A stretch of DNA of 64,000 bases from Euzebya rosea (GCF_003073135.1 NZ_PGDQ01000013.1:124001-188000), one strand, 5' to 3'. Positions 29,447 through 54,238 are shown, counted from the first letter of the stretch. Numbers and translations: made by a program. The notes: generated from the sequence alone by a model not told the origin.

Positions 29447-29450
29447 CGCG

Positions 29451-30119
29451 ATGTTCAACGCGATGCTCAAGGGCTTCGGTCTGACGTTCAAGACGATGTT
29501 CAGGCCGCCAGTCACCACCCAGTACCCCGAGGTCAAGCGGCCCACCCAACCGCGCTTCCACGGGCGCCACGTCCTCAACCGGCACCCCGACGGGCTGGAG
29601 AAGTGCGTCGGCTGCGAGCTGTGCGCCTGGGCCTGCCCCGCCGACGCCATCTTCGTGATGGGCGCCGACAACAGCCCTGACGCCCGGTTCTCCCCCGGTG
29701 AGCGGTACGGCGTGGACTACCAGATCAACTACCTGCGCTGCATCTTCTGCGGCCTGTGCATCGAGGCCTGCCCCACCCGGGCGCTGACGATGTCCAACGA
29801 GTACGAGATCGCCGGTGACAACCGCGACGACCTGATCTTCACCAAGGACCAGCTGCTGGCACCGCTGCCAGAGGGTGCCAACGAAACCCCGCACACCGAC
29901 GCGGAGGTCGCAGCCCGGGGGCTGGAGTACTACGAGAACAACTTCGCCGGCCAGGAGCCGTTGGTCAGCAAGGGCAGCGCCTACGTGTACGACAAGCGCA
30001 TGACCAAGGCCGCCGACGGCGAGACCATGGGCGCCGTCGCCACCCAGCCCATCCCCGGCACCCAGACCCGACCCGGCAACGAGGACGGCATCGACGACGA
30101 CGGTGAGGTCGTGGCATGA
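29451..30119 (+). CDS. nuoI: NADH-quinone oxidoreductase subunit I (operon 1)
   Basis: A ferredoxin-like subunit with the N6a and N6b [4Fe-4S] clusters that carry electrons towards NuoB. Both motifs are perfect: [12 protein letters not shown] with Cys52, 55, 58 and 62, and [12 protein letters not shown] with Cys97, 100, 103 and 107. An amphipathic N-terminus ([16 protein letters not shown]) anchors it to the membrane arm. At 222 residues it has a C-terminal extension of about 60 residues with no recognised motif. It overlaps nuoJ by four bases. Confidence 0.95.
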
Positions 30120-30892
30120 GCGGGCTCGTGCCGGCCGTCGTCACGCTTGCCCAGACGGCCACCCAGTCCACCTCGGGTGCGGCGGAGTTCTGGGTCTTCT
30201 GGCTGATCGCCCCCCTCTCCCTGGCCGCCGCCGTCAGCGTCGTGGTGCTGAAGAACCCGGTCCACGCCGCGCTGATGCTGGTCATCAACTTCTTCACGTT
30301 CGCGGTCTTCTACGCCGTGCTGCAGGCGCAGTTCCTGGCCACCATCCAGGTGATCGTCTACGCCGGCGCGATCATGATCCTCTTCCTGTTCGTGCTGATG
30401 CTGCTGGGCGTCGACAAGGGCGTCGAAGCAGGTCCGGGCAGGCTCCGCGGGCAGAAGCTCGCGGCCATCGTGCTCGGCGTCGGCCTGTTCATGGGGCTGA
30501 CCGCGACCGTGGCCGGGCCCTACATGGGCACCGACAGCGCCTGCAACATCTCCGGGGCCGTCGAGGAGTCCATCGCCGACCAGGGTGCGGCCGCCCGACC
30601 CTGCGTGGGGCTGGAGGGCCAGAACGCCGCCGAGGGTGGCAACGTCGCCCAGCTCGGCCGCCTGATCTTCGGCAAGTACGTGTGGCCGTTCGAGGTCACG
30701 AGCGTCCTGCTGGTCATCGCCGCCATCGGCGCGATGGTCCTCGGCCGACGCACCGACAACCTGACCGACCTCGTCGACTCCGGCATCGCCGCCGAGCCGG
30801 GCACCCCCCACGTGCCCGTGTCCATCCCCTCCGGCGAGACCGCCACCCCGGCCGCCGAGCTCGACGACCACACCGAAGGGGGTGGGCTGTGA
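30116..30892 (+). CDS. nuoJ: NADH-quinone oxidoreductase subunit J (operon 1)
   Basis: A membrane subunit with about five helices, 258 residues. The family helix with the pi-bulge region is visible as [21 protein letters not shown], just after [20 protein letters not shown]. It is longer than the E. coli protein (184 residues) because of a loop between helices 4 and 5, around residues 135-180, containing two cysteines ([10 protein letters not shown] and PCVGLEGQ) and a hydrophilic C-terminal tail. The start overlaps the nuoI stop as ATGA; the end overlaps nuoK. Confidence 0.93.
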
Positions 30893-31206
30893 GTCCCGCT
30901 GCGGGCGTCCCGGCCGGCTACTACCTGCTGCTGGCTGCTGCCCTGTTCTCGATCGGCCTCGTGGGCGTCCTCGTGCGCCGGAACCTGATCGTGATGTTCA
31001 TGTGCATCGAGCTGATGCTGAACTCGGTCAACCTGACCCTGGTCGCCTTCAGCCGCATCAACGGCAACCTCGACGGACAGGTCCTGTCCTTCTTCGTCAT
31101 GGTCGTCGCTGCGGCCGAGGTCACCGTCGGGCTCGCCCTCATCGTGAACCTGTTCCGACTCCGGGCGTCCATCGACGCCGACGACGCAGATCGGCTCCGC
31201 TCGTGA
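30889..31206 (+). CDS. nuoK: NADH-quinone oxidoreductase subunit K (operon 1)
   Basis: A three-helix membrane subunit, 105 residues, homologous to MrpC-type antiporter subunits. The conserved glutamates of the proton path lie in [18 protein letters not shown] and [19 protein letters not shown]. It starts at a GTG overlapping the nuoJ stop (GTGA) and ends overlapping the GTG of nuoL in the same manner, so J, K and L are translationally coupled. Confidence 0.95.
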
Positions 31207-33217
31207 CCGGCTCCCTGCTGTCCCCGCTGCTCGTCCCCGTCCTCGCGACCGAGGCCGGCGGGCATCCCTTCGAGCACATCTCCACCGCAGCTGCCGGGTC
31301 GGTCATCGACCTGGCGTGGCTGATCCCGGTCGTGCCCGCCATCAGCGCCGGCCTGCTGCTGCTGTTCGGTCGCCGCCTCGGGCGCCTGACCTCCGGCGTG
31401 GCGATCACCGCCATCGGCTTCTCCGCCACCATGGCGACGCTGGTGCTGCTGGAGCTGCTGAGCCACCCCTCGGGCGACCGCACCTTCGTGGTCGACGTCG
31501 CTGCCTGGCTGGACATCGCCGGCTTCACGGTCAACTGGTCGATGCTCGTCGACCCGCTCTCGGCCGTGATGCTGATGCTGGTCACCTGGGTCGGCCTGCT
31601 GATCCACATCTACTCGCTGGGCTACATGTCCCACGACGCGCGGTACGAACGGTTCTTCGCCTACCTGAACCTGTTCGCCGCCTCGATGCTGGTGCTGGTC
31701 CTCGGATCGAGCTTCCTCGTCCTGTTCGTCGGCTGGGAGCTGGTCGGGCTCTCCTCCTACCTCCTCATCGGCTTCTGGTTCGAGAAGAAGGAGTACGCCG
31801 CCGCGGCCAAGAAGGCGTTCGTCACCAACCGCATCGGTGACGTCGGCTTCATGGTCGCGATGTTCATCGTCTTCGCGACCTTCGGGTCCCTGGAGTTCGC
31901 CGAGGTCCTCCCGGCGATCGGCACCGCCGCGACCGGCACGCTGGTCGCCATCGGGCTGCTGCTGTTCGTCGGCGCGACGGGCAAGTCCGCCCAGATCCCG
32001 CTGTACGTCTGGCTGCCCGACGCCATGGCCGGCCCGACCCCCGTGTCGGCGCTGATCCACGCGGCCACGATGGTGACCGCGGGTGTGTACCTCATCGCCC
32101 GCACCTCACCGCTGTACGCCGCGATCCCCGACATCGGGCTGATCGTCGCCTGGGTCGGCGGGGCCACCGCCTTCGTCGCGGCCGCCATCGCCTGCGCACA
32201 GGTCGACCTCAAGAAGATCCTCGCGTACTCCACCGTCAGCCAGCTGGGCTACATGTTCATCGGCGTCGGCGTGGGCGACTACACCGCCGGCGTGTTCCAC
32301 CTGCTGACCCACGGCTTCTTCAAGGCGCTGCTGTTCCTCGCGGCCGGCTCGGTGATGCACGCCATGGCCGACCGCACCGACATCCGCCAGATGGGCGGCC
32401 TCTGGAAGAAGATGCCGATCACCGGCACGACCTCGCTGATCGCGGTCCTCGCGATCGCCGGCTTCCCGTTCTCCTCGGGCTTCTTCTCCAAGGAGGAGAT
32501 CCTCGCGGCTGCGGCCGAGACCGCCGGCACCGAGGCGCTCTGGGTGCTCGGCCTGGTGGTCGCCGGCATGACGGCCTTCTACATGGTCCGCTGGTTCCTG
32601 CTGATCTTCACCGGTCCCTCGCGCTGGGAGGGGGTCACCGACGACGCGGGCAAGGCGGTCTTCCACCCGCACGAGTCCCCGCCGTCCATGACGTTGCCGC
32701 TGCTGCTCCTGGCCGTCGCGGCGGCCTTCGGTGGCCTGCTCAACACCTCCCCCAAGGACGGCTGGCTGCACGGCTGGCTCGGCGACACCGTCGAGGCCTT
32801 CCACCACACCAGCGAGATCATCCCCGTCAGCTGGCACCTGCCGGCCGCCCTCGCCGTCGCCGCGATCGGCGTCGTGATCTCCATCTGGATGTTCCGCGGC
32901 ACCGACGCCGAGAAGGTCCGGACCATCGGCGTGGGTGGCGGCCTCGTGTCCATCGCCCGTGACAAGTTCTACGTCGACGAGTTCTACGAGTTCTTCACCG
33001 TCCGGGTCGGCGGGGCGCTGGCCCGCGGCCTGTCCCGCGTCGACAAGGGCGGGGTGGACGGCATCGTCAACGGCGCCGCCGGCCTGACCCGATCCTTCGC
33101 CGGCCAGGCACGTCGCACCCAGACCGGCTACGTCCGCTCCTACGCCCTGGGCATCGTCGCGGGAACCATCTTCCTCGGCGCGCTCGTGGCGTTCGCCTTC
33201 ATCGGAGGCTCCGTCTG

Positions 33218-33218
<1 letters not shown>
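31203..33218 (+). CDS. nuoL: NADH-quinone oxidoreductase subunit L (operon 1)
   Basis: The distal antiporter-like proton-pumping subunit, 671 residues, with about 16 helices and the C-terminal lateral helix region. Key features are [19 protein letters not shown] (helix 5 with its conserved Glu), the lysine motif [20 protein letters not shown] and [14 protein letters not shown]. The C-terminal part, [20 protein letters not shown], is typical of NuoL. A 35-residue N-terminal extension containing GGHPFEH precedes the first helix. The paralogue in operon 2 is 83 residues longer because of a His/acid-rich loop. Confidence 0.95.
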
Positions 33219-34737
<1,519 letters not shown>

Positions 34738-34741
<4 letters not shown>

Positions 34742-36510
34742 CCTCCCTGTTCGTGCACCCCGTGCTGGCCCAGACGGGCGCCCAGATCGTCGACTTCCCG
34801 TGGGCGGCGATCAGCCCCGAGCTGGTGCTGTTCGGCGTCGGCATCCTGGCGCTGCTGCTGGACACCGCCGGCGTCACCCCGACCGGCCGCAACAACCGCA
34901 ACCGCCTGCAGGCCTCCTTCGTCGCCGGTGGCGTCATCCTCGCGTGCTGCGGGGCGGCCTACTGGCAGAACGCCTCCACCAGCGGGTCCAACGTGCCCCT
35001 GCTGGCGGGCATCGTCGCCATCGGCGCGGTCGTGCAGTTCGGCCTGACCGCATGGCTCAAGGACACGCCCCGCCGCCTCGGCGCCGTCATCAGCTTCCTC
35101 GGCTTCGCCGCCGCGCTGGGCGTGACCATCTGGCAGTGGCAGACCTACGCCGGGCAGCTCGTCGCCGTCAGCGGCGGGCAGGACGCCGTGGCCCTGGTCG
35201 GCACCGACTCGTTGCTGGCCGGCATGGCCGCCGTCGACGGTGTCGCCCTGTTCACCCGCTTCTCGGTGTGCCTGGCCGGGATGATCACCATCCCCATCGG
35301 CTTCGCCTACATGGAGGAGCGCCAGATCCACCGCGGCGAGTACTACCCGCTGCTGCTGTTCGCCGCGACCGGCATGACGCTGCTGGCCGCCGCCAACGAC
35401 CTGATCCTCGTCTTCATCGCCGTGGAGATCCTCTCCCTCGCGCTGTACGTCATGGCTGGCCTCGCCAAGCGTGACCTCAACAGCCAGGAGTCGGCGATGA
35501 AGTACTTCCTGCTGGGGGCGTTCTCCTCGGCCCTGCTGCTGTACGGCATCGCGCTGTGCTACGGCGTGGCCGGGTCGACGAACATCCCCGAGGTCGGTCG
35601 GGCGCTCGCGTCGCTGACCGCCCCCGACGGCCTGACCGTCGTCGCGCTCGTCATGCTGCTGGTCGGCTTCGCGTTCAAGACCGCGCTGGTGCCGTTCCAC
35701 TTCTGGACCCCCGACGTCTACCAGGGCGCCCCGACGCCGGTCACCGGCTTCATGGCCGCGGCCACCAAGGCCGCCGCGTTCGCCGCGTTCGTCCGGGTGT
35801 TCGTCGGTGCCCTGGCGCCCCTCCAGTGGATCTGGGCGCCGGTCATCATCGGCGTGGCCGTCGTCACCATGATCGGCGGTGCGGTGCTGGCGATCGTGCA
35901 GACCGACGTCAAGCGCATCCTCGCCTACTCCGCGGTCGCCCACGCCGGCTACGTCGCCATCGGCCTGGTGTCCATCAGCCCCCTCGGGGCGGACGGCACC
36001 CGCAACGCCGGCCGCGAGTCCGTCGGCGCGATCCTGCTGTACCTGCTGGTCTACACCTTCATGTCGGTCGGCTCGTTCGGGGTCGTGGCGTTCTTCGAGC
36101 GTCGCCTCAAGAAGGCCGTCACCCTCGACGACCTCCGTGGTCTCGGCCGCCGGTACCCGCAGCCCGCCATGGCGATGGGCCTGTTCCTGATCTCCCTCGC
36201 CGGCATCCCCGGTACCGCCGGCTTCACCGCCAAGTTCGCGATCTTCCGGGCGGGCATCGACGCCGGTCAGCTGCTGCTGGTCATCGTCGGTGTCGTCTCC
36301 AGCGTCATCGCCGCCTTCTTCTACCTGCGGATCATCGCCTCGATGTTCGTGGAGGACGAGTCGACGGCGTCCCTGGCCATCGCCGACCCGCCCCGATCCG
36401 ACGCGGCGATGCTCGGAATCGGCCTTGCTGCGGTGGCCGTGGTCGTCCTCGGTGTCCTGCCCGGTGCGCTGGTGAGCCTCGCGCAGCAGGCAGGTACGTT
36501 TGCTGGGTGA
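34738..36510 (+). CDS. nuoN: NADH-quinone oxidoreductase subunit N (operon 1)
   Basis: The third antiporter-like subunit, 590 residues, somewhat longer than most (480-540) owing to an extra N-terminal loop (residues 45-160). Recognised from VFIAVEILSLALYVMAGLAK, FKTALVPFHFWTPDVYQGAP and VKRILAYSAVAHAGYVAIGL, and from GIPGTAGFTAKFAIFRAG near the C-terminus. It is the last of the 14 genes and starts at a GTG overlapping nuoM. A hairpin separates it from the polyprenyl synthase gene. Confidence 0.95.
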
Positions 36511-41593: not shown

Positions 41594-44305
41594 TCAGCCG
41601 CCGCCGTAGCAGACCAGCATCAGGGCGGCGGCCCAGGCGTGGGGGGAGGAGGGGTCGAGGGTGCGGCGCGCGGTCCACAGGGCGCGGGCCATCGTCGCGC
41701 CGGCGGCCAGCTCGGTGTGCAGGGCGGCCATGACCGGGCCGGACACCCCGTCGGGCAGGCTCGCCGTGGACGCGACGACGGCGCCAGCCCCGCTGGCCAG
41801 CAGCGCACCGACCATCCCCTCGAGCTCCGGACCGACCAGGTCGCCGGGATGGCCCAGCTCGCACGCGGCGAGCACCCAGCGATGGGCCGGCCGGCCCAAC
41901 GCGGTCACCTCGTGCACGGTCAGCGGCCCGTCGGCCAGCTCCACGGAGGAGAACAACGGCGAATCCGTCCGCAGCCGACCGTGGCACGCGAGGTGCACCA
42001 GCCCGGCACCCTCGGCGGCAGCCAGCACCGCCCGGCCCGTCGCGGACTCGCCCACCAGCAGGGTGGCGTCGCCGAACACCTCCGCCAGCCGTGCCGTCTC
42101 GTCCTCGGCCGCGTCCAGACGGGGCCCGGCGACCAGGACGACCCGGTCCGACGCGGCCCGGCGGTCCACCGACGCCATCCACGACCGTGCCGAGACGTCC
42201 AGGGCGACCGGGACGTCGGCCAGCCCGCCCAGCATCGACCACGGCACCGCCAGCAGGTCCGCGGGTGGCACGACGACGACCTCCTCGGCCCCCGCCAGCG
42301 ACGCGACCAGCGGTGACCAGACCACCCGCGCCAGGTCCTCCACCACCCGTCCGGCGCTGCGGCGGGCGCTGTCCACCATCCGTGCCGACCGCGAGGTCGT
42401 CAGCCGCTGCAGCGCCGCCCCCAGCTGCGTCGTCGCCGACGACACGACGTCAGCCGGCCCGAGCTCGACCACGTCCACGTCCCCGCCGAACGTGACGACC
42501 GCCACCAACCCCCCGCCGTGTCGCTGGACCTGGACCAGCGCGCGGTCGGGGCCCAGCCGCTCGTGGACGCCGTCCAGCCACGCCCCGGCGTCACCGTCGG
42601 CCCCAACCCCGCCGGCCCCCACCCCGCCGCCCCCAACCCCGCCGGCCCCCACCCCGTCACTCCCGGGGCCGTCGTCGCTGGCCCACAGCCGCTCCCGGAC
42701 CCGCCGCTCGAGGGCCGACAGCTCGCGCACCCGATCGCCCGCCTGCCCGTCCTCGGCCAGCTCGGGGTCCGACAGGGCGGACTCCAGCGCACGGATCTCC
42801 GCCAGCCACGTGGTCACCTGCGGGTCGGCGGTCCTCGGCCCGACGAGCGGGACCGACCGGCTGCGCTCCATCCACTCCCAGACCAGCTCGGCGTCCCCGG
42901 CATGCATCGCGGCAGCCAACCCCGTCGATGCAAGGACCGTCCCGTGGGCCGCGGCCCGGGACCGCAGCTCGGCCGACCCCACGGTCGCGCGGTACCCCTC
43001 CAGCTCCACCAGCCCCGCACGGCAGTGCTGCAGGCAGCGGTCCACGTCGCCGCCCACCCGCGCCGCACCCGCCAGCGCCCGGTGGCGCTGCACCCGCATC
43101 ATCGCCGAGCCGTCCTCGATCGCGCCACCGTCCGGGTCCCCGCCCTCGGCTGCCCGCTGCCAGGCCCGGCCGGCCGCCGCCGGATCGTCCACCTCGAAGG
43201 CGACGTCACCCAGCAGCAGCGCGGCGTCGACGGCGGCGAACCGATGCCCGAGGGTGCGCAGCCGTGCCTCGGTCGCCTCGATCTCCGGCAGCAGGTCGGG
43301 CGAGGGGCCGCGGCCCGCCCGTGCCCGCAACGCCAGCAACGTCGCCTCGGCCTGCCGTCCGGGTCGTTCCTGGGCGGCGGCCAGCTCGGCGGCCTCGGCG
43401 GCTGCGGCGGCCGCCTCGTCCCACCGGCCGCGGGCAAGCGCCGCCCGGGCGAGGGGCAGGAGCGTGTCGACGAGGAGGATCGGGACGCCACCCGCCCGGC
43501 GGACCTCGGCGACGGCCATGGCGGCAGCCTCGGCAGCCTCCTCCAGCAGGTACATCGACGACAGCGCGTCGGCCTTCTCGCGGTACAGCTCGGCCAGCGG
43601 CACCCCCAGCTCGATGCACAGCTGCTCGACCTCGGCGTAGCGGCTCATGGCAAGGGCGGGTGTGCCCCGACGCAGCGCCAGCTCGGCCCGGTTCGCCGTG
43701 ATGGCCAGGTACAGGCCGCCGCGGAACGGTGCGGCGATCCGCGCCGCCTCGTCCAGGACCTCCTCGGCACGTGCGTGGTGGCCCAGCATCGTCAGCAGCT
43801 CGCCGAGGTTGTTGCCGATCTTGCCGGCCAGGTTCGCGTCGTCACCCACCAGCAGGTCCCGGGCGCGTTCGTACCCGGCGACCGCCGCGGGGGTGTCCCC
43901 GGCGGTCTGCAGGACCAGCGCACGGGCGAAGGCCACCTCGGCCTGCTGGGCGGGGGCCGCGTGCACGCCGGCCAGATCGACGTCGGCCCGCGCCAGCTCC
44001 GTGCGGCCGAGCTCGAGGTGGACGGCCGACCGGGTCACCAGTGCCTCGACCAGGCGCTCGGCCAGCCCGGCCCGTTCGCACACGGTGATGCACTCGTCGA
44101 GGAGGGCCTCGGCACGGTCGTGGCTGAAGACCTCTCTCGCCGCCCACGCCGCGGCGCGCAGCACCACCGCCAGCGGCTCGTCGGCGCCCTCCTCACGCGC
44201 CCGATCCGCGACCTCCTCGGCCAGCGCCAGCCCCGCGTGGGGGTCGGCCAGGACGAGCTCGGCAACGGCCTCGGCGCGTTCGGCAAGGGGAGTGGAAGCG
44301 GCCAT
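41594..44305 (-). CDS. Helical-repeat (TPR-like) CHAT-domain cysteine protease
   Basis: A large cytoplasmic protein of 903 residues. Two thirds are Ala/Leu/Arg-rich helical hairpins of tetratricopeptide type (AEVAFARALVLQTAGDTPAA, ANRAELALRRGTPALAMSRY and similar). A Gly/Val linker of four five-residue repeats precedes a C-terminal CHAT domain, a caspase-clan protease fold. The candidate dyad is His775 in HLACHG and Cys815 in VLAACELG; the closing helix ends in AAALMLVCYGG, typical of CHAT. There is no signal peptide. The ATG at 44305 begins the first helix. It is divergent, with a gap of about 125 bp, from a subtilase that also lacks a signal peptide. Target and trigger are unknown. Confidence 0.85.
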   Translation of the reverse strand: MAASTPLAERAEAVAELVLADPHAGLALAEEVADRAREEGADEPLAVVLRAAAWAAREVFSHDRAEALLDECITVCERAGLAERLVEALVTRSAVHLELGRTELARADVDLAGVHAAPAQQAEVAFARALVLQTAGDTPAAVAGYERARDLLVGDDANLAGKIGNNLGELLTMLGHHARAEEVLDEAARIAAPFRGGLYLAITANRAELALRRGTPALAMSRYAEVEQLCIELGVPLAELYREKADALSSMYLLEEAAEAAAMAVAEVRRAGGVPILLVDTLLPLARAALARGRWDEAAAAAAEAAELAAAQERPGRQAEATLLALRARAGRGPSPDLLPEIEATEARLRTLGHRFAAVDAALLLGDVAFEVDDPAAAGRAWQRAAEGGDPDGGAIEDGSAMMRVQRHRALAGAARVGGDVDRCLQHCRAGLVELEGYRATVGSAELRSRAAAHGTVLASTGLAAAMHAGDAELVWEWMERSRSVPLVGPRTADPQVTTWLAEIRALESALSDPELAEDGQAGDRVRELSALERRVRERLWASDDGPGSDGVGAGGVGGGGVGAGGVGADGDAGAWLDGVHERLGPDRALVQVQRHGGGLVAVVTFGGDVDVVELGPADVVSSATTQLGAALQRLTTSRSARMVDSARRSAGRVVEDLARVVWSPLVASLAGAEEVVVVPPADLLAVPWSMLGGLADVPVALDVSARSWMASVDRRAASDRVVLVAGPRLDAAEDETARLAEVFGDATLLVGESATGRAVLAAAEGAGLVHLACHGRLRTDSPLFSSVELADGPLTVHEVTALGRPAHRWVLAACELGHPGDLVGPELEGMVGALLASGAGAVVASTASLPDGVSGPVMAALHTELAAGATMARALWTARRTLDPSSPHAWAAALMLVCYGGG
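42601..42660. repeat. 15-bp minisatellite, four units, in frame
   Basis: Four 15-base units (42601-42615, 42616-42630, 42631-42645, 42646-42660) alternate CCCCAACCCCGCCGG and CCCCCACCCCGCCGC, with the last unit degenerate at its end. On the minus strand they encode a Gly/Val-rich linker between helical repeats and the CHAT domain. Unit number could vary without shifting the frame. Confidence 0.85.
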
Positions 44306-44430
44306 CGAGGCTCGCACGGTAGACCAGCACGTATCACCAGCGCTCGCCACCACTCAGGAGGCGCCGGGGACGTCTATCGTCCCTCGATGGCGAACGCCAT
44401 CGCACACACGACACCTGAGGGGTGACCGAC

Positions 44431-45789
44431 GTGGCCAGTGACAACATCGACGACCGCACGCCCGACGAGAAGGAACGGATCGCCCGGCAGGCGCGGGCGC
44501 TGGAGCGACTCGCCGACGACGAGTGGCACGCCCGGGTGATGCGCGAGAGCGTCGCCGCCCACAACGAGTGGGCGGGCCGCGCGGTCAGCGGGCTCGAGAT
44601 CCCACGGCTGCAGCTGGTGGAGGCGCCCGGCGGCTCGATCGTGCCGATCCCCGTCGTCGAGGGCGAGGTCATCGTGCGGGCCGACGACCGCGACGACCAC
44701 GAGACGGCCGAGGAGGTCCTCGCCGGCGTCGGGTACCGGGAACGCAGCCGGAGCGGGGCCATCGTGACGTTCGGCGGCGACCCCGCCGACCTCGACAGGG
44801 CCCTGGAGGTCATGGCCGACAAGGGGATCGCGGGCTCCGCCAACCACTTCGTCGCGCTGCGCGGGTGGACCGCCAAGGCCGGGGCCAGCCCGGAGCACCC
44901 CACGTCGGGCATGCGGGCGCACGACCCGGCGAAGGGCGACGACGAGTCGGCCACGCCGGTCGCCGTCGTCGACACCGGTGTGCCGGAGGGCGTGCATGCC
45001 GGGCCCGGCGGCTGGCTGGCCCACGTCGAGCACGGCACCTCGGCGGTGGATCGCATCACCATGGCCGACGTCACCGTCACCGCCCCGCCGATGCTGGATC
45101 CGGCCGCCGGCCACGGGGCGTTCGCCCTCGGCATGGTGCGCCAGGCCTACCCAGACGTGCACCTGGGGTCCTTCAGGGCCCTCACCGCGGTCGGGGGTGG
45201 CAGCGAGGCCGACGTCGCCGCCGCCATCCAGCGAGCGGCCGACTGGATCGCCGCGGTCTCGGCCGCCAACGGCTGGGCGCGTCCCCGCGGCGTGCTGAAC
45301 CTCTCGTTCGGGACCACCACCGTCGACGGCAACCCGCCCGTCGCCATCGAGCAGGTCCTCGACGCCCTGTCGCCCGACATCCTCGTCGTCGCGGCCGCGG
45401 GCAACGTGGGCAACACCGAACCCAAGTGGCCGGGTGCCTCCAAGCGTGTGCTCGGCGTGGCCGCGCTGGCCCACGACGGCGTCACCCCGGCCAGCTGGTC
45501 GACCCGGGGACGTTGGGTGGACTTCTCCACCATCGGCGAGGGGCTGGTCAGCACCCATGTGCCGGGGGAGGAGAACCCGCGCTTCGACCCGCAGCCCGAG
45601 ACCTTCGGCACCGACCCCCTCGCGCTGTGGTCCGGCACCTCCTTCGCCGCCCCGCTGATCGCCGGCTGGCTGGCCCGGAGGATGGCCGAGGACCCCTCCG
45701 TTCCGGCCCAGGACGCCGTCACGTGGCTGCGGGGGAGGGGTCGGCGCACGAGAGACTTCGGGTACGCCATCCGGCGCGACGACATGTGA
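44431..45789 (+). CDS. Subtilisin-like serine protease without signal peptide (S8 family)
   Basis: A protease of 452 residues, presumably cytoplasmic because no export signal or membrane helix is present. The triad is Asp181 in AVVDTGV, His228 in GHGAFALG and Ser404 in WSGTSFAAP, with the oxyanion Asn325 in AAAGNVGN. The first 165 residues form an N-terminal domain rich in charged residues with an inhibitor-like ferredoxin-fold look. The GTG at 44431 is chosen because GAGGGG lies nine bases before it; an in-frame GTG at 44422 is too close to that site. It is divergent from the CHAT protease gene, suggesting joint regulation and function. Confidence 0.88.
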   Translation: MASDNIDDRTPDEKERIARQARALERLADDEWHARVMRESVAAHNEWAGRAVSGLEIPRLQLVEAPGGSIVPIPVVEGEVIVRADDRDDHETAEEVLAGVGYRERSRSGAIVTFGGDPADLDRALEVMADKGIAGSANHFVALRGWTAKAGASPEHPTSGMRAHDPAKGDDESATPVAVVDTGVPEGVHAGPGGWLAHVEHGTSAVDRITMADVTVTAPPMLDPAAGHGAFALGMVRQAYPDVHLGSFRALTAVGGGSEADVAAAIQRAADWIAAVSAANGWARPRGVLNLSFGTTTVDGNPPVAIEQVLDALSPDILVVAAAGNVGNTEPKWPGASKRVLGVAALAHDGVTPASWSTRGRWVDFSTIGEGLVSTHVPGEENPRFDPQPETFGTDPLALWSGTSFAAPLIAGWLARRMAEDPSVPAQDAVTWLRGRGRRTRDFGYAIRRDDM

Positions 45790-46019
45790 TCCCCGCAGGA
45801 ACGGGGCGCCCCGGGCGGCTGCGGGGCGTGCAGGGAGCCCGTTCGCCTGTCACCGAGGGTGCCCCGTCGTGGCGTGCCGGGGCCGAGGATTCGGCAGCCC
45901 CTCTACCCATTTCGTAGACTCATGCCCCCGCGGCCCCTCATGGGGTGCACGCGTCGGTGCCCTCTGCACCCGGCGACACCCATCGAGCCGCGCGTGACGT
46001 CCCCCTCCACAGGAGAATC
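45790..46019 (+). promoter_or_regulatory. Leader/promoter region of the second nuo operon
   Basis: A gap of 230 bp after the subtilase. A plausible -10 TAGACT lies at 45915-45920, with only a poor -35 (TTCGGC about 19 bp upstream). AGGAG precedes the nuoA2 ATG. No TTGTGAA-N4-TTCACAA-like Rex operator is visible anywhere in this gap, in contrast to operon 1. Confidence 0.45.
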
Positions 46020-46403
46020 ATGACCGAGTACTACGAGGCCTATGGCACGGTGATCGCGCTGCTGGTCGCCGGCATCGCGCTTGTCGCTGTCGCCTTCCTG
46101 CTCGGCCGACTCGTCAGCCCCAAGCGCGAGTACGGCCGATACGGCGAGAAGCGCGTGGCGTTCGAGTCAGGCATCGATCCCGTCGGGTTCGGGTGGTCCC
46201 AGACCAACATCCGGTACTACATGTTCGCCTTCATGTTCGTCATCTTCGACGTGGAGACGCTGTTCGTGTTCCCCTGGGCCAACTACCTGGAGACGGCCGG
46301 TCCGGACCAGGGCTTCGTGCTCGGCGTGATGCTGGTCTTCCTGTTCTTCGTGACCGTCACGCTGCCGTACGAATACAAGAAGGGTGTGCTGAAGTGGGTC
46401 TGA
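46020..46403 (+). CDS. nuoA: NADH-quinone oxidoreductase subunit A (complex I, operon 2)
   Basis: The second copy of NuoA, 127 residues, three helices. The diagnostic loop [19 protein letters not shown] and the helix [20 protein letters not shown] are present. Apart from these motifs it differs strongly from the operon 1 copy, so the two operons are old paralogues or were acquired separately rather than recently duplicated. The ATG has AGGAG upstream, and its 3' end overlaps nuoB by ten bases. Confidence 0.95.
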
Positions 46404-46942
46404 GCGACCAGGTAGAAGTCCCGAAGCCGCTGCGCTTCGTCCTCAACTGGGGACGCAAGTACTCGCTCTGGGTCTACAACTTCGGGCTGGCGTGCTGCGC
46501 GATCGAGTTCATCGCCGCATCCACCGCTCGTCACGACTTCATCCGCCTCGGGGTCATCCCGTTCGCCCACGCCCCCCGGCAGGCCGACGTGATGATCGTC
46601 GCGGGCACGTTGACCGACAAGATGGCCCCGGCCGTCAAGCGGCTCTACGACCAGATGCCCGAGCCGAAGTACGTCATCAGCTTCGGGTCCTGCTCCAACT
46701 GCGGTGGCCCCTACTGGGACAGCTACTCCGTCACCAAGGGCGTCGACCAGATCATCCCCGTCGACGTGTACGTCCCCGGATGCCCCCCGCGCCCGGAGGC
46801 CCTGCTGGAGGGGATCGTCCACCTGCAGGAGCTGATCGGCAACGAGTCCCTGAAGGACCGCTACGCCGAGCGCGACGCCCGCCAGCCGATCGTCGTCGGC
46901 GGTGGCGACCCCACCCGTCACCCGCTGTCGGACCCGATGTAG
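46394..46942 (+). CDS. nuoB: NADH-quinone oxidoreductase subunit B (operon 2)
   Basis: The N2-cluster subunit of the second complex, 182 residues. Cysteine ligands are complete: Cys34-Cys35 in LACCAIEF, Cys100 in [10 protein letters not shown] and Cys130 in VPGCPPRPE. It has an extra Cys103 close to Cys100 that the operon 1 copy lacks. The GTG start overlaps nuoA. The length is standard, without the C-terminal extension of the first NuoB. Confidence 0.95.
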
Positions 46943-46955
46943 GCCCGCTGACCAC

Positions 46956-47924
46956 ATGACTCCCAACGCACTGGCGGATCGTTTCCGCGACGAGCTCGGC
47001 GAACGCGTGCTCGCTGCCGACGTCGCCCACGACCAGCTGACGGTCACCGTCGACCCCGAGGCCTACCCACAGGTCGCCCGGTTCTGCAAGCAGACCCTGG
47101 GCATGACCTTCTTCGACTTCCTCGGTGGGGTCGACGAACGCGAGGACGGCTTCAGCGTCGTGGTGCGCGTCTACAACCACATCACCCGCGACGGCGTGCT
47201 GCTGAAGACCATGGTCCCCGGCGGCCGTGACGAGCCCCGCGTGGCCACCCTCACCGACGTGTGGCGCGGTGCCGACTGGCACGAGCGCGAGGCCTACGAC
47301 ATGTTCGGCATCGTGTTCGAGGGCCACCCCGGCCTGCTGCCCCGCATCCTGACGGTGGAGAACTTCGAGGGCTGGCCCCTCCGCAAGGAGTTCCTGCTGA
47401 CCTCCCGGGAGGTCAAGCCGTGGCCGGGCGCCAAGGAACCGGGCGGCGACGACGACGACGCCGACGCCAAGCCGAAGGCCGCCGCCCCCGCCCCCGGTGC
47501 CGACCCGGGCGACCGTGCTGCTGCCGCCAAGGCCAAGGCCGAGCGCGCCAAGGCCAAGGCCGCGGAGGCGCGGAAGCGGAAGGCCGAGCAGAAGGCTGCC
47601 GAGCAGGCCGGGGCAGCCCCCGCCGCCGACGCCGGCGAGCCCGAGGGGGCAGCGGAGATCGCCGACACCCCGGAGGCCAAGGACGCGGCCGCTGGTGCCG
47701 TCGACGGCGACACCGCCACACCGGCACCGGGTGACGCACCCGGCGCCGACGAACCCGTGATCGAACCCGAGCGCGAGGCAGAGGTCGCCGAGGGCGGCCC
47801 CGCCCAGGACAGCGGCACGCCCGGCGTGGAGGCCGAGGGCGTCCACGACCTCGAGGACTCCTCCGCGCGTCCCTCGGTCCACGACGACGAGAACCCCGAC
47901 GAGAAGGGCAGCACCGATGAGTGA
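46956..47924 (+). CDS. nuoC: NADH-quinone oxidoreductase subunit C with long charged tail (operon 2)
   Basis: A NuoC protein of 322 residues. The conserved domain occupies roughly the first 155 residues and includes ADWHEREAYDMFGIVFEGHP and LRKEFLLTSREVKPWPG. The remaining 165 residues form a low-complexity tail: first Ala/Lys/Glu-rich (a likely long helix, AAKAKAERAKAKAAEARKRK), then Asp/Glu/Ala/Pro-rich. No such tail exists in the operon 1 copy. It overlaps nuoD by eight bases. In an enzyme without NuoEFG, such a tail could help recruit another electron donor, but this is speculation. Confidence 0.92.
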   Translation: MTPNALADRFRDELGERVLAADVAHDQLTVTVDPEAYPQVARFCKQTLGMTFFDFLGGVDEREDGFSVVVRVYNHITRDGVLLKTMVPGGRDEPRVATLTDVWRGADWHEREAYDMFGIVFEGHPGLLPRILTVENFEGWPLRKEFLLTSREVKPWPGAKEPGGDDDDADAKPKAAAPAPGADPGDRAAAAKAKAERAKAKAAEARKRKAEQKAAEQAGAAPAADAGEPEGAAEIADTPEAKDAAAGAVDGDTATPAPGDAPGADEPVIEPEREAEVAEGGPAQDSGTPGVEAEGVHDLEDSSARPSVHDDENPDEKGSTDE

Positions 47925-49098
47925 GACCCTGGCCCGACCCAACGCCCCGGTCATCCCCGGCGGTCCGCAGGAGGGCATGCTGGTGGAGTTCCGCGGAGCG
48001 GAGCTCGACACCACGTCGATGAACCTCAACGTGGGCCCCGCCCACCCGGCCACCCACGGTGTGCTCCGCCTGGTCATCGACCTCGACGGCGAGCAGATCA
48101 AGAAGGCCCAGCCGGTCATCGGGTACATGCACCGCGGCTTCGAGAAGCTCGCCGAGGCGCGTGACTACCGCCAGATCATCGCCCTGGTCAACCGCCACGA
48201 CTGGCTGAGCGCGTTCTGCAACGAGCTCGGCGTCGCCATCGCGGTGGAGACCATGATGGAGCTGGAGGTCCCCGAACGGGCCCAGTGGATCCGCGTGATG
48301 ATGGCGGAGTGGAACAGGATCCTCAACCACCTGCTGCTGCTGGGCTCCTACGCCCTGGAGCTCGGCGCGCTGACGCCGATGTTCTACACGGTCCGTGAGC
48401 GCGAGGACATCCAGAACATCCTCGAGGCCGCCACCGGCGGGCGCCTGCACTACACCTATACACGTGTGGGTGGCCTCAAGGAGGACCTGCCCCGCGGCTT
48501 CCTGCAGGCCAGCGCCGACATGGCCCAGCGCATGAAGGGCGCAATCCAGCAGTACGAGGACCTGCTGCTGGGCAACGAGATCTTCATCGCCCGCACCAAG
48601 AACGTCGGCATCCTGCCGCAGGACGTCGCGCTGGACTACGGCGTGAGCGGGTGCGCCCTGCACGCCACCGGCATCAACGAGGACGTCCGGGTCTCCCAGC
48701 CCTACGCCGCCTACGACAAGGTCGACGTCCACGTGCCGACCGGCACCAACGGCGACAGCTACGACCGCTTCTACTGCCTCATCGAGCGGATGAAGGCCAG
48801 CGTCGACATCATCGAGCAGGTCCTCGACAACATCCCGGCCGGCCCGGTCAACGTCAAGCTGCCCAAGATCGTGAAGGCCCCCGAGGGCGCCATCCACGTC
48901 CGCACCGAGAACCCCCTCGGCCAGGGCGGCTACTACCTGGTCAGCGACGGGCAGAAGACCCCGTGGCGCATGAAGATGCGCACGCCCTCGTTCTCCAACG
49001 TCCAGGCCATCCCGTACCTGCTCGAGGGCCAGCTCATGGCCGACATGATCGCCATCCTCGGCTCGGTGTTCTTCGTCGTCGGTGACGTCGATCGCTAG
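47917..49098 (+). CDS. nuoD: NADH-quinone oxidoreductase subunit D (operon 2)
   Basis: The quinone-site subunit of the second complex, 393 residues. Motifs are MNLNVGPAHPATHGVLRL, IGYMHRGFEKLAEARDYRQI and the end GSVFFVVGDVDR. The HRGFEK form is the one common in most bacteria, whereas the operon 1 copy has HTGIEK. No nickel-binding CxxC pairs are present, so it is not a group 4 hydrogenase large subunit. In the 14-gene order nuoE, F and G would follow, but only a 52-bp gap separates it from nuoH. Confidence 0.95.
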   Translation: MSETLARPNAPVIPGGPQEGMLVEFRGAELDTTSMNLNVGPAHPATHGVLRLVIDLDGEQIKKAQPVIGYMHRGFEKLAEARDYRQIIALVNRHDWLSAFCNELGVAIAVETMMELEVPERAQWIRVMMAEWNRILNHLLLLGSYALELGALTPMFYTVREREDIQNILEAATGGRLHYTYTRVGGLKEDLPRGFLQASADMAQRMKGAIQQYEDLLLGNEIFIARTKNVGILPQDVALDYGVSGCALHATGINEDVRVSQPYAAYDKVDVHVPTGTNGDSYDRFYCLIERMKASVDIIEQVLDNIPAGPVNVKLPKIVKAPEGAIHVRTENPLGQGGYYLVSDGQKTPWRMKMRTPSFSNVQAIPYLLEGQLMADMIAILGSVFFVVGDVDR

Positions 49099-49150
49099 CG
49101 CGATCGCGATCGACACTGCCCGCTAGTCGGATCAGGAAACACACGTACTC

Positions 49151-50179
49151 ATGGAATCAGTCCTCGCACTCGACAACTTCTGGCTTGCGCTTCTGCTGAA
49201 GCTGGCCGGTTGTGTCGTGTTCTTCCTGACCATCCCCTTGGTGGCTGGGTACCAGGAACACAAGGTCATGGCGTTCATGCAGAACCGCCTCGGGCCCATG
49301 GAAGCCGGCCCGTTCGGTGCCCTGCAGCTCGTCGCCGACGGCATCAAGTTCATCCAGAAGGAGGACATCCGCCCGGCCACGGCCGACAAGTGGGTGTTCA
49401 ACCTGGCCCCGGGTGTCGTGCTGATCCCGACCCTCCTGATGATCGTCGTCATCCCCCTGTCGCCCGGCGGGTTCGCCGAGGCCCTCGACATCGGCATCTT
49501 CTTCGCCCTCGCGGTGTCCTCGGTGTCGGTCGTCGGTGTGATGATGGCCGCCTGGGGGTCGGCGTCGAAGTACTCCCTGATCGGTGGCCTGCGCGAAGCG
49601 GCCCAGCTGATCGCCTACGAGATCCCCCTGTTCCTGGCCGCCGCCGCCGTGGTGATGCAGGCCGGCACGATGTCCATGGTGGGCATCGTCGAGGCCCAGG
49701 CGAGCTACACCGCCTTCGGCATCCCCGTGCCCTACGCCGTGCCGCAGGTCATCGGGCTGTTCGTCTTCTCCTGCGCGGTGCTCGCCGAGCTGAACCGGCC
49801 GCCCTTCGACATGCCGATCGCCGACTCGGAGGTGATCGCGGGGCACATGACGGAGTACTCCGGCCTGCGCTTCGCCTTCTTCCTGCTGACCGAGTTCGCG
49901 GGCATGGTCGTCTTCAGCGCCTTCATCGTCGTGATGTACCTGGGTGGCTGGTACATCTGGCCGGGCGTTCCCATGCCCGACAACGAGGTGCTGGCCAACC
50001 TGCTCGGCACGGCCGTCACCCTCGGCAAGATCCTCCTCCTGGTCGGTGTGATGACGTGGCTGCGGTCCACCTATCCGCGTCTCCGCGAGGACCAGCTCCA
50101 GAAGTTCGCGTGGACCGTCATGATCCCCCTCGCAATCCTGCAGATCGTCGTCGTGGCGATCTTCAAGGTGGTCGCATAG
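49151..50179 (+). CDS. nuoH: NADH-quinone oxidoreductase subunit H (operon 2)
   Basis: A membrane subunit of 342 residues, about eight helices, forming the quinone channel. It has EHKVMAFMQNRLGPMEAGP in place of the more usual ERR-xxxxQxRxGPN, and LAELNRPPFDMPIADSEVIAG for the acidic loop. Length is standard and there is no tail like that in the operon 1 copy. Directly after nuoD without E, F and G, it marks the fusion point of the quinone module and membrane arm in the 11-gene operon. Confidence 0.95.
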   Translation: MESVLALDNFWLALLLKLAGCVVFFLTIPLVAGYQEHKVMAFMQNRLGPMEAGPFGALQLVADGIKFIQKEDIRPATADKWVFNLAPGVVLIPTLLMIVVIPLSPGGFAEALDIGIFFALAVSSVSVVGVMMAAWGSASKYSLIGGLREAAQLIAYEIPLFLAAAAVVMQAGTMSMVGIVEAQASYTAFGIPVPYAVPQVIGLFVFSCAVLAELNRPPFDMPIADSEVIAGHMTEYSGLRFAFFLLTEFAGMVVFSAFIVVMYLGGWYIWPGVPMPDNEVLANLLGTAVTLGKILLLVGVMTWLRSTYPRLREDQLQKFAWTVMIPLAILQIVVVAIFKVVA

Positions 50180-50182
50180 CTG

Positions 50183-51007
50183 ATGAGTACCCCCACCAAG
50201 CCCAAGCGCGGCGCACCACAGATCGGCCTGCTGAAGGGTCTCGGCGTCACGCTGAAGACCATGTTCACCAAGCCGACGACCGTGCAGTACCCCCACACCA
50301 AGCCCGACCTCCCGCCGCGTACCCGCGGTGTGATCGCGCTGATGGAGGAGAACTGCACCGTCTGCATGCTGTGCAGCCGCGAGTGCCCCGACTGGTGCAT
50401 CTACATCGACTCCCACAAGGAGACGGTGCCGCCCAAGGACGGCGGACGTGCCCGGACGCGCAACATCCTCGACCGCTTCGCGATCGACTTCGCGCTGTGC
50501 ATGTACTGCGGCATCTGCGTGGAGGTCTGCCCCTTCGACGCCCTGTTCTGGTCGCCGGAGTTCGAGTACTCCACGGTGACCATCCAGGAGCTGACCCACG
50601 AGAAGGAGCAGCTCCGCAAGTGGATGGACACCGTCCCGCCGCCGCCGGAGCTGGAGTACGGCGCCGAGCTGCCCAAGGAGATCCAGCAGGGCCTCGACGC
50701 GGCACGCAAGAAGGCCGCCACTGCTGCTGCTGCCGTCGCCAAGGCCGCACCCGCCGCGGGTGACGCCGGGCCGGCCGCCGAGGCCAAGCCCGAGGTGAAG
50801 AAGCGTCCCGAGGACGACATCCACGTCGAGGCCCAGATCGACCAGGCCGTCTTCGACAAGCTCGTCGCGGAGGGCAAGTCCGAGCGCGTCGCCCGGGCCA
50901 AGGCCAAGGCCGCGTACGTCCGTGCCGAGAAGAAGCGGATCCTCGCTGAACAGGGTGGCGCCGAAGGCGCCCAGGGGCAGCAGGGTTCCGACGGAGGCGA
51001 TTCCTGA
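50183..51007 (+). CDS. nuoI: NADH-quinone oxidoreductase subunit I with C-terminal tail (operon 2)
   Basis: A two-cluster ferredoxin-like subunit of 274 residues. Cluster ligands are Cys58, 61, 64 and 68 ([11 protein letters not shown]) and Cys108, 111, 114 and 118 ([11 protein letters not shown]), with an extra Cys72. In a complex lacking NuoG and NuoF this subunit would be the entry point for electrons. After about residue 155 comes a Lys/Ala/Glu/Pro-rich tail of 120 residues that ends in a glutamine/glycine stretch. The segment [20 protein letters not shown] may be a small folded element. Confidence 0.93.
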
Positions 51008-51645
51008 TGGACCTGCAGCTCGCCGACTACTGGATGCTGCTGACCTTCATCCTCGGTGGCGCCGCCGCGCTGCTGGTGGTGGTCAGCAAGAACGTCGTCC
51101 ACTCCGCGCTGTACCTCGTCATCGCGCTGCTGAGCGTGGCCGGCGTGTTCCTGCTGCTGGGCGCGGAGTTCCTCGCCTGGACCCAGGTGCTGGTCTACGC
51201 CGGCGCGGTGATCGTGCTGATCCTCTTCGGGCTCATGCTGACCCGTGCCCCCATCGGTCCGATCCGCGAGGACTCCGAGAACACGCGGCTTGCCTTCGGG
51301 GTCGCCGCGGCGCTCTTCGTGTTCATGATGGTCGTCATCGTCGGCAGCTTCGGCGACACCCGCCTGGAGCTGGTGCCGACGCTCACGATCGACCTGGCCA
51401 GCTTCCTCTACGTCGAGTGGGCCTTCCCGCTCCTGGCGCTCGGCTTCCTGCTGACCGTCGCCCTGGTCGGTGCGGTCATCATCGCCCGCCAGGAGGTCGG
51501 CGAGGGCCCCGACCCGGTCGACGGGGACTACATCGACCGTTCCGAGGTCCCGGCCGCCCGCGAGGGCGACAGCTGGGCCGAGCCGGGTGCCTTCGTGCGT
51601 GAGAGGCAGTCACCGGCTGCCATCAGCGGAAAGGCGGACTCCTAG
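51007..51645 (+). CDS. nuoJ: NADH-quinone oxidoreductase subunit J (operon 2)
   Basis: A five-helix membrane subunit of 212 residues. [20 protein letters not shown] and [20 protein letters not shown] match the conserved helices 2 and 3. A hydrophilic tail of about 45 residues follows the last helix. It lacks the cysteine-containing loop of the operon 1 protein. Start and stop overlap nuoI and nuoK by one base each. Confidence 0.93.
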
Positions 51646-51959
51646 TGCTTGCCGTGTTCCCCCTGGCCTTCGCGGCCCTGCTGTTCTGCCTGGGCGTCTA
51701 CGGCGTCCTGGCCCGCCGCAACGCGGTGCTGGTGCTGATGAGCGTGGAGATGATGCTCGCCGCCGTCACCATCAACCTGGTCACCTTCGGCGCCTTCGGT
51801 GCCACCAACGGCGACCTGATCCTCACCGGCCAGATCTTCGCGCTGTTCGTCCTCGCGGTGGGTGCCGCCGAGGTCGGCATCGGCCTGGCCATCATCCTCC
51901 TGCTCTACCGCAACCGCGCCAGCGTCAACATCGACGACGCTGACCTGATGCGCTACTAG
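51645..51959 (+). CDS. nuoK: NADH-quinone oxidoreductase subunit K (operon 2)
   Basis: A three-helix subunit of 104 residues. The glutamates of the proton route appear in [17 protein letters not shown] and [18 protein letters not shown]. The GTG start shares a base with the nuoJ stop codon. Conserved and unremarkable. Confidence 0.94.
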
Positions 51960-51973
51960 GAACTCCTGTTCTC

Positions 51974-54238
51974 ATGATCTCTGACTACGCATGGTTGATC
52001 CCGGTGCTGCCGGCGATCTCGGCGGTCCTGACCCTGCTCTTCGGCAAGAAGATGAAGGGCAAGGGCGCCGAGTTCGGCATCACCGCGCTGGCCCTTGCCT
52101 TCGTCCTGTCGGTGCTGGTCGCCGTCGAGGTGTTCTCCGCCAACGTCCAGGCCGTCGCCGACCTCGAGGAGTACCACCACTCCGAGGAGGGTGACCACGC
52201 CGAGGACGAGGACCACGCCGAGGAGGGTGGAGCGACCGACGGCGAGCACGCCGAGGACGAGGAGCACGCCGACGAGGCAGAGCACACCGAGGAGACCTCG
52301 CTGCGCCAGGGCTCCCCGCTCGACGGCGTGATGGTCGCCGCAGCCGGCCTCGAGGGGCTTGACCTGGCCACCGAGGGGGGCGAGGCGATCGAGATCCCCG
52401 AGGGCATCCACAGCTTCGTCAACGAGGGATCGTTGTCGCTGGGCCAGCTCGGCGGCGACTTCGAGCTGGAGGCCGGACAGCGCATCGACGGCCTCGCCGC
52501 GATGATGTTCCTGCTGGTCACCTTCGTCAGCCTGATGGTGCACATCTACTCCACGGGCTACATGAAGGGCGAGCCCCGCTACACCTACTACTTCACGCTG
52601 CTCAGCCTGTTCACCATGTCGATGCTGATCATGGTGATCGCCAACAACATGCTGCAGCTGCTGGTCGGCTGGGAGCTGGTCGGCGTCTGCTCGTTCCTGC
52701 TGATCGGCTTCTACTGGGAGGGGCGCTCAAACCAGCACGCCGCCCAGAAGGCCTTCCTGACGACCAAGTTCGGCGACGTCGGCCTCATGGTCGGTGTGGT
52801 CTCGCTCTGGGCACAGTTCGGCACGTTCAACATCGGCGAGATGATCGACATGGCCACCCACGCCGAGCAGGCGGGGGGTGCGCCCCTCGAGACGGGCCTG
52901 CTGACCTTCGGCCTGATCTCGCTGTTCGTGGGTGCGATCGGCAAGTCCGCGCAGTTCCCCCTGCAGACCTGGCTGCCCGACGCCATGGCCGGTCCGACGC
53001 CCGTGTCGGCCCTGATCCACGCGGCCACCATGGTGACCGCCGGCATCTTCCTGGTCGCGCGGATCTATCCCGTCTACCAGCTCTCGCCCGCCGCCCTGAC
53101 CGTCATCGCGGTCATCGGTGCCATCACGCTGTTCTCGATGGGCTTCCTCGCCCTGGTGCAGGACGACATCAAGCGCGTGCTGGCCTACTCCACGGTGTCG
53201 CAGCTGGGCTACATGGTCGCGGCGCTGGCCTTCAGCTACACGGCCGGCATCTTCCACCTCTTCACCCACGGGTTCTTCAAGGCCCTGCTGTTCCTCGCGT
53301 CCGGATCGGTCATCCACGCGGTCCACTCCAACGACATGGTCAACATGGGTGGCCTGCGCAAGTACATGCCCGCCACCTTCTGGACGTGGATCATCGGCAC
53401 CCTGGCCCTGGCGGCGATCTTCCCGCTCGCCGGCTTCTGGTCCAAGGACGAGGTGCTCGCGGGCGCCTTCACCAAGATGGGCTACACCGGCAACCTCGTC
53501 TGGATCCTGGGCGCGCTCGGTGGCTTCGTGACCGCCTTCTACATGGCGCGCGCCACGACGATGACCTTCTTCGGTGACTACCGGGGCACGATCGACGACA
53601 CCCACCCGGCGCCGCACGAGTCGCCGCGGTCCATGAAGTGGCCGCTGATCGCCCTGTCGGTCCCGGCGCTCGGCATCGGGTTCATCAACCTCCCGTTCGA
53701 CTTCGCGCACTCGTGGGGCTTCGCGGCGTGGACCATGCCGTCCCTGGAGTACTTCGAGGGGCACCCGCCGCACTTCTACTGGAGCCTCGCGATCGGTTCC
53801 ACGGTGCTCGGCCTCGCCGGCCTGGCTGCCGGGTACTTCATGTACCGGACCTACAAGGCACCGGCGGAGGACCCGTTCAACAACCTCGGGCTGGTCACCA
53901 CCGTCCTCCAGCGCAAGTACTTCCTGGACGACCTGTACTCCGGCCTGATCATGACCACCATCCGCGACCGGATCAGCCCGGCCGTCTACTGGATCAACGA
54001 CAACGTGATCGACCGGGTCGTGTACCTGGCCGGCATCGGCACCCGGAGCCTCGGCCGCGGCGTGTACCGGGTCGTGGACCAGAAGGTCATCGACGGCGCG
54101 GTCAACGGCGCCGGTACCGGCGCCAACTGGTCCGGTGGCCTGATCAAGTTCGCACAGTCAGGCAACGTGCAGTTCTATGCCGGCGCGATGTTCATCGGCG
54201 TCTTCGTCTTCGCAGTGCTGTTCGCAGCGGCTGCATAA
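51974..54238 (+). CDS. nuoL: NADH-quinone oxidoreductase subunit L with His/acid-rich loop (operon 2)
   Basis: The distal antiporter-like subunit, 754 residues. Core motifs are intact: [40 protein letters not shown] and [14 protein letters not shown]. What stands out is an insertion between the second and third helices. Residues 66-108 hold eight histidines among mostly Glu and Asp (HHSEEGDHAEDEDHAEE and similar), and the whole loop runs to about residue 165. The operon 1 protein has only about 35 residues there. Such His/acid stretches often bind divalent metals; the loop probably lies on the outer face, by analogy with other NuoL proteins. Confidence 0.94.
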   Translation: MISDYAWLIPVLPAISAVLTLLFGKKMKGKGAEFGITALALAFVLSVLVAVEVFSANVQAVADLEEYHHSEEGDHAEDEDHAEEGGATDGEHAEDEEHADEAEHTEETSLRQGSPLDGVMVAAAGLEGLDLATEGGEAIEIPEGIHSFVNEGSLSLGQLGGDFELEAGQRIDGLAAMMFLLVTFVSLMVHIYSTGYMKGEPRYTYYFTLLSLFTMSMLIMVIANNMLQLLVGWELVGVCSFLLIGFYWEGRSNQHAAQKAFLTTKFGDVGLMVGVVSLWAQFGTFNIGEMIDMATHAEQAGGAPLETGLLTFGLISLFVGAIGKSAQFPLQTWLPDAMAGPTPVSALIHAATMVTAGIFLVARIYPVYQLSPAALTVIAVIGAITLFSMGFLALVQDDIKRVLAYSTVSQLGYMVAALAFSYTAGIFHLFTHGFFKALLFLASGSVIHAVHSNDMVNMGGLRKYMPATFWTWIIGTLALAAIFPLAGFWSKDEVLAGAFTKMGYTGNLVWILGALGGFVTAFYMARATTMTFFGDYRGTIDDTHPAPHESPRSMKWPLIALSVPALGIGFINLPFDFAHSWGFAAWTMPSLEYFEGHPPHFYWSLAIGSTVLGLAGLAAGYFMYRTYKAPAEDPFNNLGLVTTVLQRKYFLDDLYSGLIMTTIRDRISPAVYWINDNVIDRVVYLAGIGTRSLGRGVYRVVDQKVIDGAVNGAGTGANWSGGLIKFAQSGNVQFYAGAMFIGVFVFAVLFAAAA

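Follow-up and report, generated by a model that had tools for sequence, protein, structure and literature searches.

What do two divergently transcribed proteases do among the housekeeping genes of an actinomycete? The question is raised by a pair of neighbouring genes in a 64,000-nucleotide stretch (the window; G000:C13:124001-188000) of the 5.5-Mb genome of Euzebya rosea, here G000, one encoding a cysteine protease with a TPR superhelix and a CHAT catalytic domain (CHAT) and the other a subtilase of family S8 (S8). An earlier, sequence-only reading took them for a possible two-protease system in which each enzyme might activate the other. We propose, at roughly an even chance, that these genes make up the protease half of a regulatory module, split and of ECF54 type by gene context, and that their products act as a relay controlling a sigma factor.

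The CHAT-S8 pair is real, conserved and under selection. Both open reading frames are present and, as first described, diverge across 125 bp between their probable starts; an alternative CHAT start at the upstream GTG 44353 was judged less likely than the ATG at 44305. A second species carries the pair at the same locus, adjoining nuo genes, and comparison with it gives ratios of nonsynonymous to synonymous substitution (dN/dS, NG86) of ~0.20 for CHAT and ~0.12 for S8, indicative of purifying selection; substitutions in both genes fall predominantly at third codon positions, and the intergenic region is mostly conserved. The catalytic sets are intact, namely His775 and Cys815 in CHAT, the latter at the number originally given to it, and Asp181, His228, Asn325 and Ser404 in S8, all four conserved in 42 of 42 rows of the family alignment. 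Judged from the conservation of these residues, both enzymes look active.

In named genomes, among them Saccharothrix, Kribbella, Salinispora and Nonomuraea, neighbouring genes were counted for the 80 CHAT relatives that lie closest. CHAT is adjoined by S8 in 72 of the 80, by a sigma factor in 69, and in 73 by a small protein, CPD, one end of which is carboxypeptidase-regulatory-like and matches Pfam CarboxypepD_reg weakly (E 0.015-0.024); all four genes stand together in 64. Because S8 adjoins so many of the closest CHAT relatives, the pairing is not a matter of chance, and its recurrence in other genomes, on which the sequence-only reading had staked its proposal, is borne out. Relatives of the E. 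rosea genome likewise carry CHAT-S8 pairs in head-to-head or tandem arrangement, most of them next to the sigma factor and CPD. The partner sigma factor is of the extracytoplasmic function (ECF) type by TIGR02937, and carboxypeptidase, subtilase and CHAT proteins make up the gene context described for ECF54, whose control by proteolysis is so far a proposal (PMC8999054). The conserved sigma and CPD partners point away from a killer pair acting on its own and towards regulated transcription.

The ECF54 neighbourhood has the same four gene kinds, and relatives of both window genes lie within it, but the window clade has its sigma factor and CPD elsewhere in the genome. Neither gene adjoins the window pair or its nearest relatives, and an unlinked sigma-CPD pair is found in the same genomes: at G000:C4:193-194 kb in E. 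rosea, at 2.66 Mb in G003 (CHAT-S8 at 5.17 Mb), at 0.83 Mb in G006 (CHAT-S8 at 2.0 Mb), and on a contig other than that of CHAT-S8 in G005, G007, G009 and G016. Where the sequence-only reading had looked to nearby sigma factors, sensors or toxins, an ECF sigma factor and CPD prove to be the conserved partners, but in this genome they are encoded at a distance. Of 30 relatives that lack a linked module, the five with CHAT all have CPD, versus 2 of the 25 others (hypergeometric p ~1.5e-4), and among 149 genomes drawn across the phylum CHAT is present in 16, including each of the 15 that have CPD.

In FastTree phylogenies the orphan sigma factors of G000, G003, G005, G007, G009 and G011 form one clade together with a single linked sigma factor (support 99). 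The clades that hold the window CHAT and S8 match in membership; each includes one linked system (L102), and a linked sister group sits one step outside. Since G006 and G016, whose modules are split too, have other positions in the CHAT tree, splitting of the module happened more than once. With the switch half, sigma and CPD, located elsewhere in the genome, the two window genes most likely encode the protease half of a signalling cascade, and we regard their membership of the sigma module as very probable. The E. rosea genome additionally holds a complete linked sigma-CPD-CHAT-S8 operon (L059:8239-13056; G000:C3:74.2-79.1 kb), in which the S8 protein carries both a signal peptide and a prodomain resembling that of fervidolysin, and further sigma genes of the same family occur with no CHAT or CPD beside them at G003:C1:114521-115075 and G000:C14:5-406.

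Structures were predicted with AlphaFold2 from family alignments, and the models were compared with the PDB. The top matches of the S8 model (pLDDT, predicted local distance difference test, 88.5; PF00082 in Pfam, 2.6e-18) are unprocessed pro-subtilisins, propeptide included: it aligns with pro-subtilisin E over 306 residues spanning propeptide and catalytic domain (Z 31.9), and its residues 77-452 align to chain 7-363 of 3whi. The sequence alone gives no Pfam I9 match, and the propeptide is assigned by the model. Because S8 matches unprocessed pro-subtilisin with the propeptide in place, it appears to be built as a zymogen. Its N-terminus contains no hydrophobic segment, the best 15-residue hydropathy within the first 75 residues being 0.92 versus 2.19 by the same measure in the secreted paralogue of L059; on this hydropathy basis the suspected lack of a signal peptide is upheld, and we model S8 as a pro-subtilisin that stays in the cytoplasm and carries its own propeptide. 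Propeptide and catalytic domain align with those of subtilisin E and Tk-subtilisin (MEROPS S8, I9 propeptide), from which S8 differs in lacking a signal peptide and in having an extra N-terminal helix and a divergent junction between the two domains.

The CHAT protein matches PF12770 (1.7e-25), with weak TPR matches besides, and is modelled (pLDDT 90.9) as a long TPR-like superhelix followed by a caspase-like domain. In the PDB it comes closest to Csx29 (Z 33.7) and to separase (Z 30.3, over 309 residues at 2.7 A), with DdvA lower (Z 23.5). By this model the catalytic domain is of separase/caspase-like fold; it shares that fold with separase, but the window CHAT is bacterial, its helical part is far shorter and its partners are other ones. 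No recognisable propeptide was seen in the CHAT protein. A conserved pairing, two enzymes that look active and a subtilase of predicted zymogen design make a proteolytic relay plausible; that much of the cascade in the sequence-only reading stands, but mutual activation finds no direct support. The linker before the CHAT domain contains a glycine-rich 15-bp repeat expansion (residues ~551-571, window 42594-42653), and the repeat tract is shorter in the sister species.

In the alignments, a hot spot appears in S8 where the propeptide joins the catalytic domain. Several relatives carry tandem hexapeptides there in 4 to 8 copies (NPAYQG, NPGYQG, PFWGGH, PFWVGH, PFTSGG), apparently amplified from a motif found once in other relatives (PLYQGGP, PFEHGGP, PDYQGGP). 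This aromatic/glycine motif occurs in 9 of 42 junctions and is uncommon elsewhere in these proteins, at 4 matches in 17156 residues, counts that describe rather than test, since the motif was defined after viewing these same sequences. The window S8 junction has no hexapeptide repeats; what the clade of this S8 retains there is another stretch (AKAGASPEHP, AKGGSTPKHT). We infer that the junction may serve as a cutting or docking place for a partner protease.

On the sigma-control reading, the TPR superhelix would bind a signal and activate CHAT, which would cut S8 between propeptide and catalytic domain and so switch the zymogen on. CHAT, the subtilase or both would then cut CPD, acting as inhibitor or sensor of the sigma factor, or the sigma factor itself, and transcription of the sigma regulon would change. 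Proteolysis of CPD or sigma is the likelier part of this scheme, and we consider it probable; the order, CHAT first and subtilase second, is held more tentatively, at a little under an even chance.

Several observations weigh against this reading. G011 and G017 contain sigma and CPD (in G017 on separate contigs) with no CHAT detected, and the correlation of CHAT and S8 pairwise distances (r = 0.88, 75 loci), in itself a point in favour, leaves species phylogeny uncontrolled. S8 is absent from five loci that do have CHAT, sigma and CPD, among them L098, where a different putative protease is found. Some S8 partners are secreted, as indicated by the signal peptide in L059 and by the fusion of S8 to three cell-wall-binding repeats (CWB2) in L072 (L072:9598-12066); owing to that fusion some probably act outside the cell, and a cytosolic CHAT could not cut S8 after export. 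A comparison of the CPD sequence with the PDB gave no match to any anti-sigma factor or to Csx30. Finally, a promoter motif common to the sigma, CHAT and S8 genes failed to emerge, word and spaced-pair counts being barely above a shuffled GC-rich background. As a separate observation, the L098 protein in the place of S8 (L098:6188-7759, minus strand) appears trypsin-like by eye and carries PHYQA-type repeats; its Pfam match is limited to a weak one to NAL1_N.

Of the alternatives, the one that survives best is that proposed for ECF54 itself (PMC8999054), namely that the proteases, each cutting sigma or CPD constantly and independently, keep the sigma factor off with no relay between them. The loci with CHAT, sigma and CPD but no S8 are consistent with it, whereas a head-to-head arrangement, joint inheritance and an S8 built like a zymogen point to activation that is regulated, and we judge constant proteolysis to be improbable. 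The reverse order, in which the subtilase processes itself and then activates or destroys CHAT, is less probable still. Canonical pro-subtilisins do self-process, and the propeptide fold of the window S8 is canonical, but its junction is strongly divergent, and repeat-expanded in relatives, unlike a plain self-cleavage site.

A stand-alone caspase-like cascade, in which mutual activation of CHAT and subtilase would lead to death or arrest of the cell under phage attack or stress, is equally doubtful. It can draw on two proteases that look active, on a subtilase modelled as a zymogen and on the effector role of CHAT proteases elsewhere. Against it, PADLOC defence-system models give no match for CHAT and for S8 a weak one to the generic 'subtilase' model PDLC03014 (2.2e-5), no CRISPR array lies near the pair in window 30000-60000, the setting is one of housekeeping genes and not a defence island, the locus is shared by two species under purifying selection, and the partner that recurs across genomes is a sigma factor rather than a toxin or pore. 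A killer or defence pair gains no support from neighbours or models and is held improbable, as is the defence role hinted at in the sequence-only reading. Least likely is a peptide-sensing circuit, in which the subtilase would make or trim a peptide read by the TPR superhelix as in the Rap and NprR receptors, which read processed peptides: the CHAT TPR region aligns with both (Z 24-30) and some S8 partners are secreted, but TPR superhelices are alike in shape without common ligands, and no peptide gene, though none was searched for, turned up beside the pair.

Returning to sigma control by a protease relay, a close functional parallel is type III-E Craspase, in which Csx29 cleaves Csx30, an inhibitor of the ECF factor CASP-sigma (PMC10028731). 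Both systems combine a TPR-CHAT fold with an ECF sigma factor and a small partner, but here no CRISPR array lies nearby, a pro-subtilisin is added and CPD shows no sequence match to Csx30 in the PDB. By this analogy the module would work like Craspase, yet it is not a member of Craspase, because of the missing array and the second protease. A CRISPR-free, Craspase-like logic, in which CHAT would trigger the cytoplasmic pro-subtilisin by a cut at its propeptide junction, in a two-protease zymogen cascade that releases an unlinked ECF sigma factor, is a rather unlikely elaboration; if true, bacteria would have a counterpart to caspase or clotting cascades whose end point is transcription. DdvA, a CHAT-domain anti-sigma factor (PDB 8rot/8rw5), also ties CHAT to sigma control but is titled transmembrane, whereas the window CHAT is predicted to be soluble. 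The link between CHAT and ECF sigma factors is now seen in three settings, Craspase, DdvA and the present module, and testing the module could show whether CHAT proteases were originally sigma-factor switches later borrowed by CRISPR.

The module has so far been known as uncharacterised gene context, and the open-access literature searched contains no laboratory test of it; judged against that literature, what appears to be new is the splitting of the module, the zymogen structure of S8, the co-occurrence evidence and the repeats at the junction. To our knowledge, cytoplasmic zymogen cascades that join two unlike proteases are rare in bacteria, and this module offers a candidate for one that is widespread in actinomycetes and tied to a sigma factor.

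Table 1. Coordinates of the protease pair and its parts within the window.
Feature	Position	Strand	Basis
TPR-CHAT cysteine protease gene, 903 aa	41594..44305	minus	Open reading frame and PF12770; ATG start 44305
CHAT catalytic domain, residues 573-903	41597..42589	minus	Pfam, model, structure comparison
Catalytic Cys815 codon (AACELG)	41861..41863	minus	Conserved in 45/45 readable rows of family alignment
Catalytic His775 codon (HLACHG)	41981..41983	minus	Conserved 46/46 in family alignment
TPR-like superhelix, residues 7-542, putative sensor	42680..44287	minus	Helical model and TPR matches
Divergent intergenic region, 125 bp	44306..44430	none	Start to start, from probable starts
S8 subtilase gene, 452 aa	44431..45789	plus	PF00082; GTG start, preceded by GAGGGG; no signal peptide
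N-terminal charged helix, residues 11-45	44461..44565	plus	Model
I9-type propeptide fold (beta-alpha-beta-beta-alpha-beta), residues 73-142	44647..44856	plus	Model and pro-subtilisin alignment
Junction linker, propeptide/catalytic domain, residues 143-175	44857..44955	plus	Hexapeptide site of relatives
Subtilisin catalytic domain, residues 176-446	44956..45768	plus	Pfam, model, alignment
Catalytic Ser404 codon	45640..45642	plus	Conserved 42/42

No third conserved gene was seen adjoining pairs of the window type, whose neighbours vary among L060, L079/L065 and L080. Within the intergenic region, candidate housekeeping -10 boxes (TACCGT, minus strand, 44316-44321; TATCGT, plus strand, 44375-44380) and a GTATCA word also found upstream of the orphan sigma gene were too weak and were left unused. 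The pair itself lies between two complex I (nuo) gene sets, one at window 29286-36510 that ends with nuoN and a polyprenyl synthase gene, the other at 45945-54238 beginning at nuoA.

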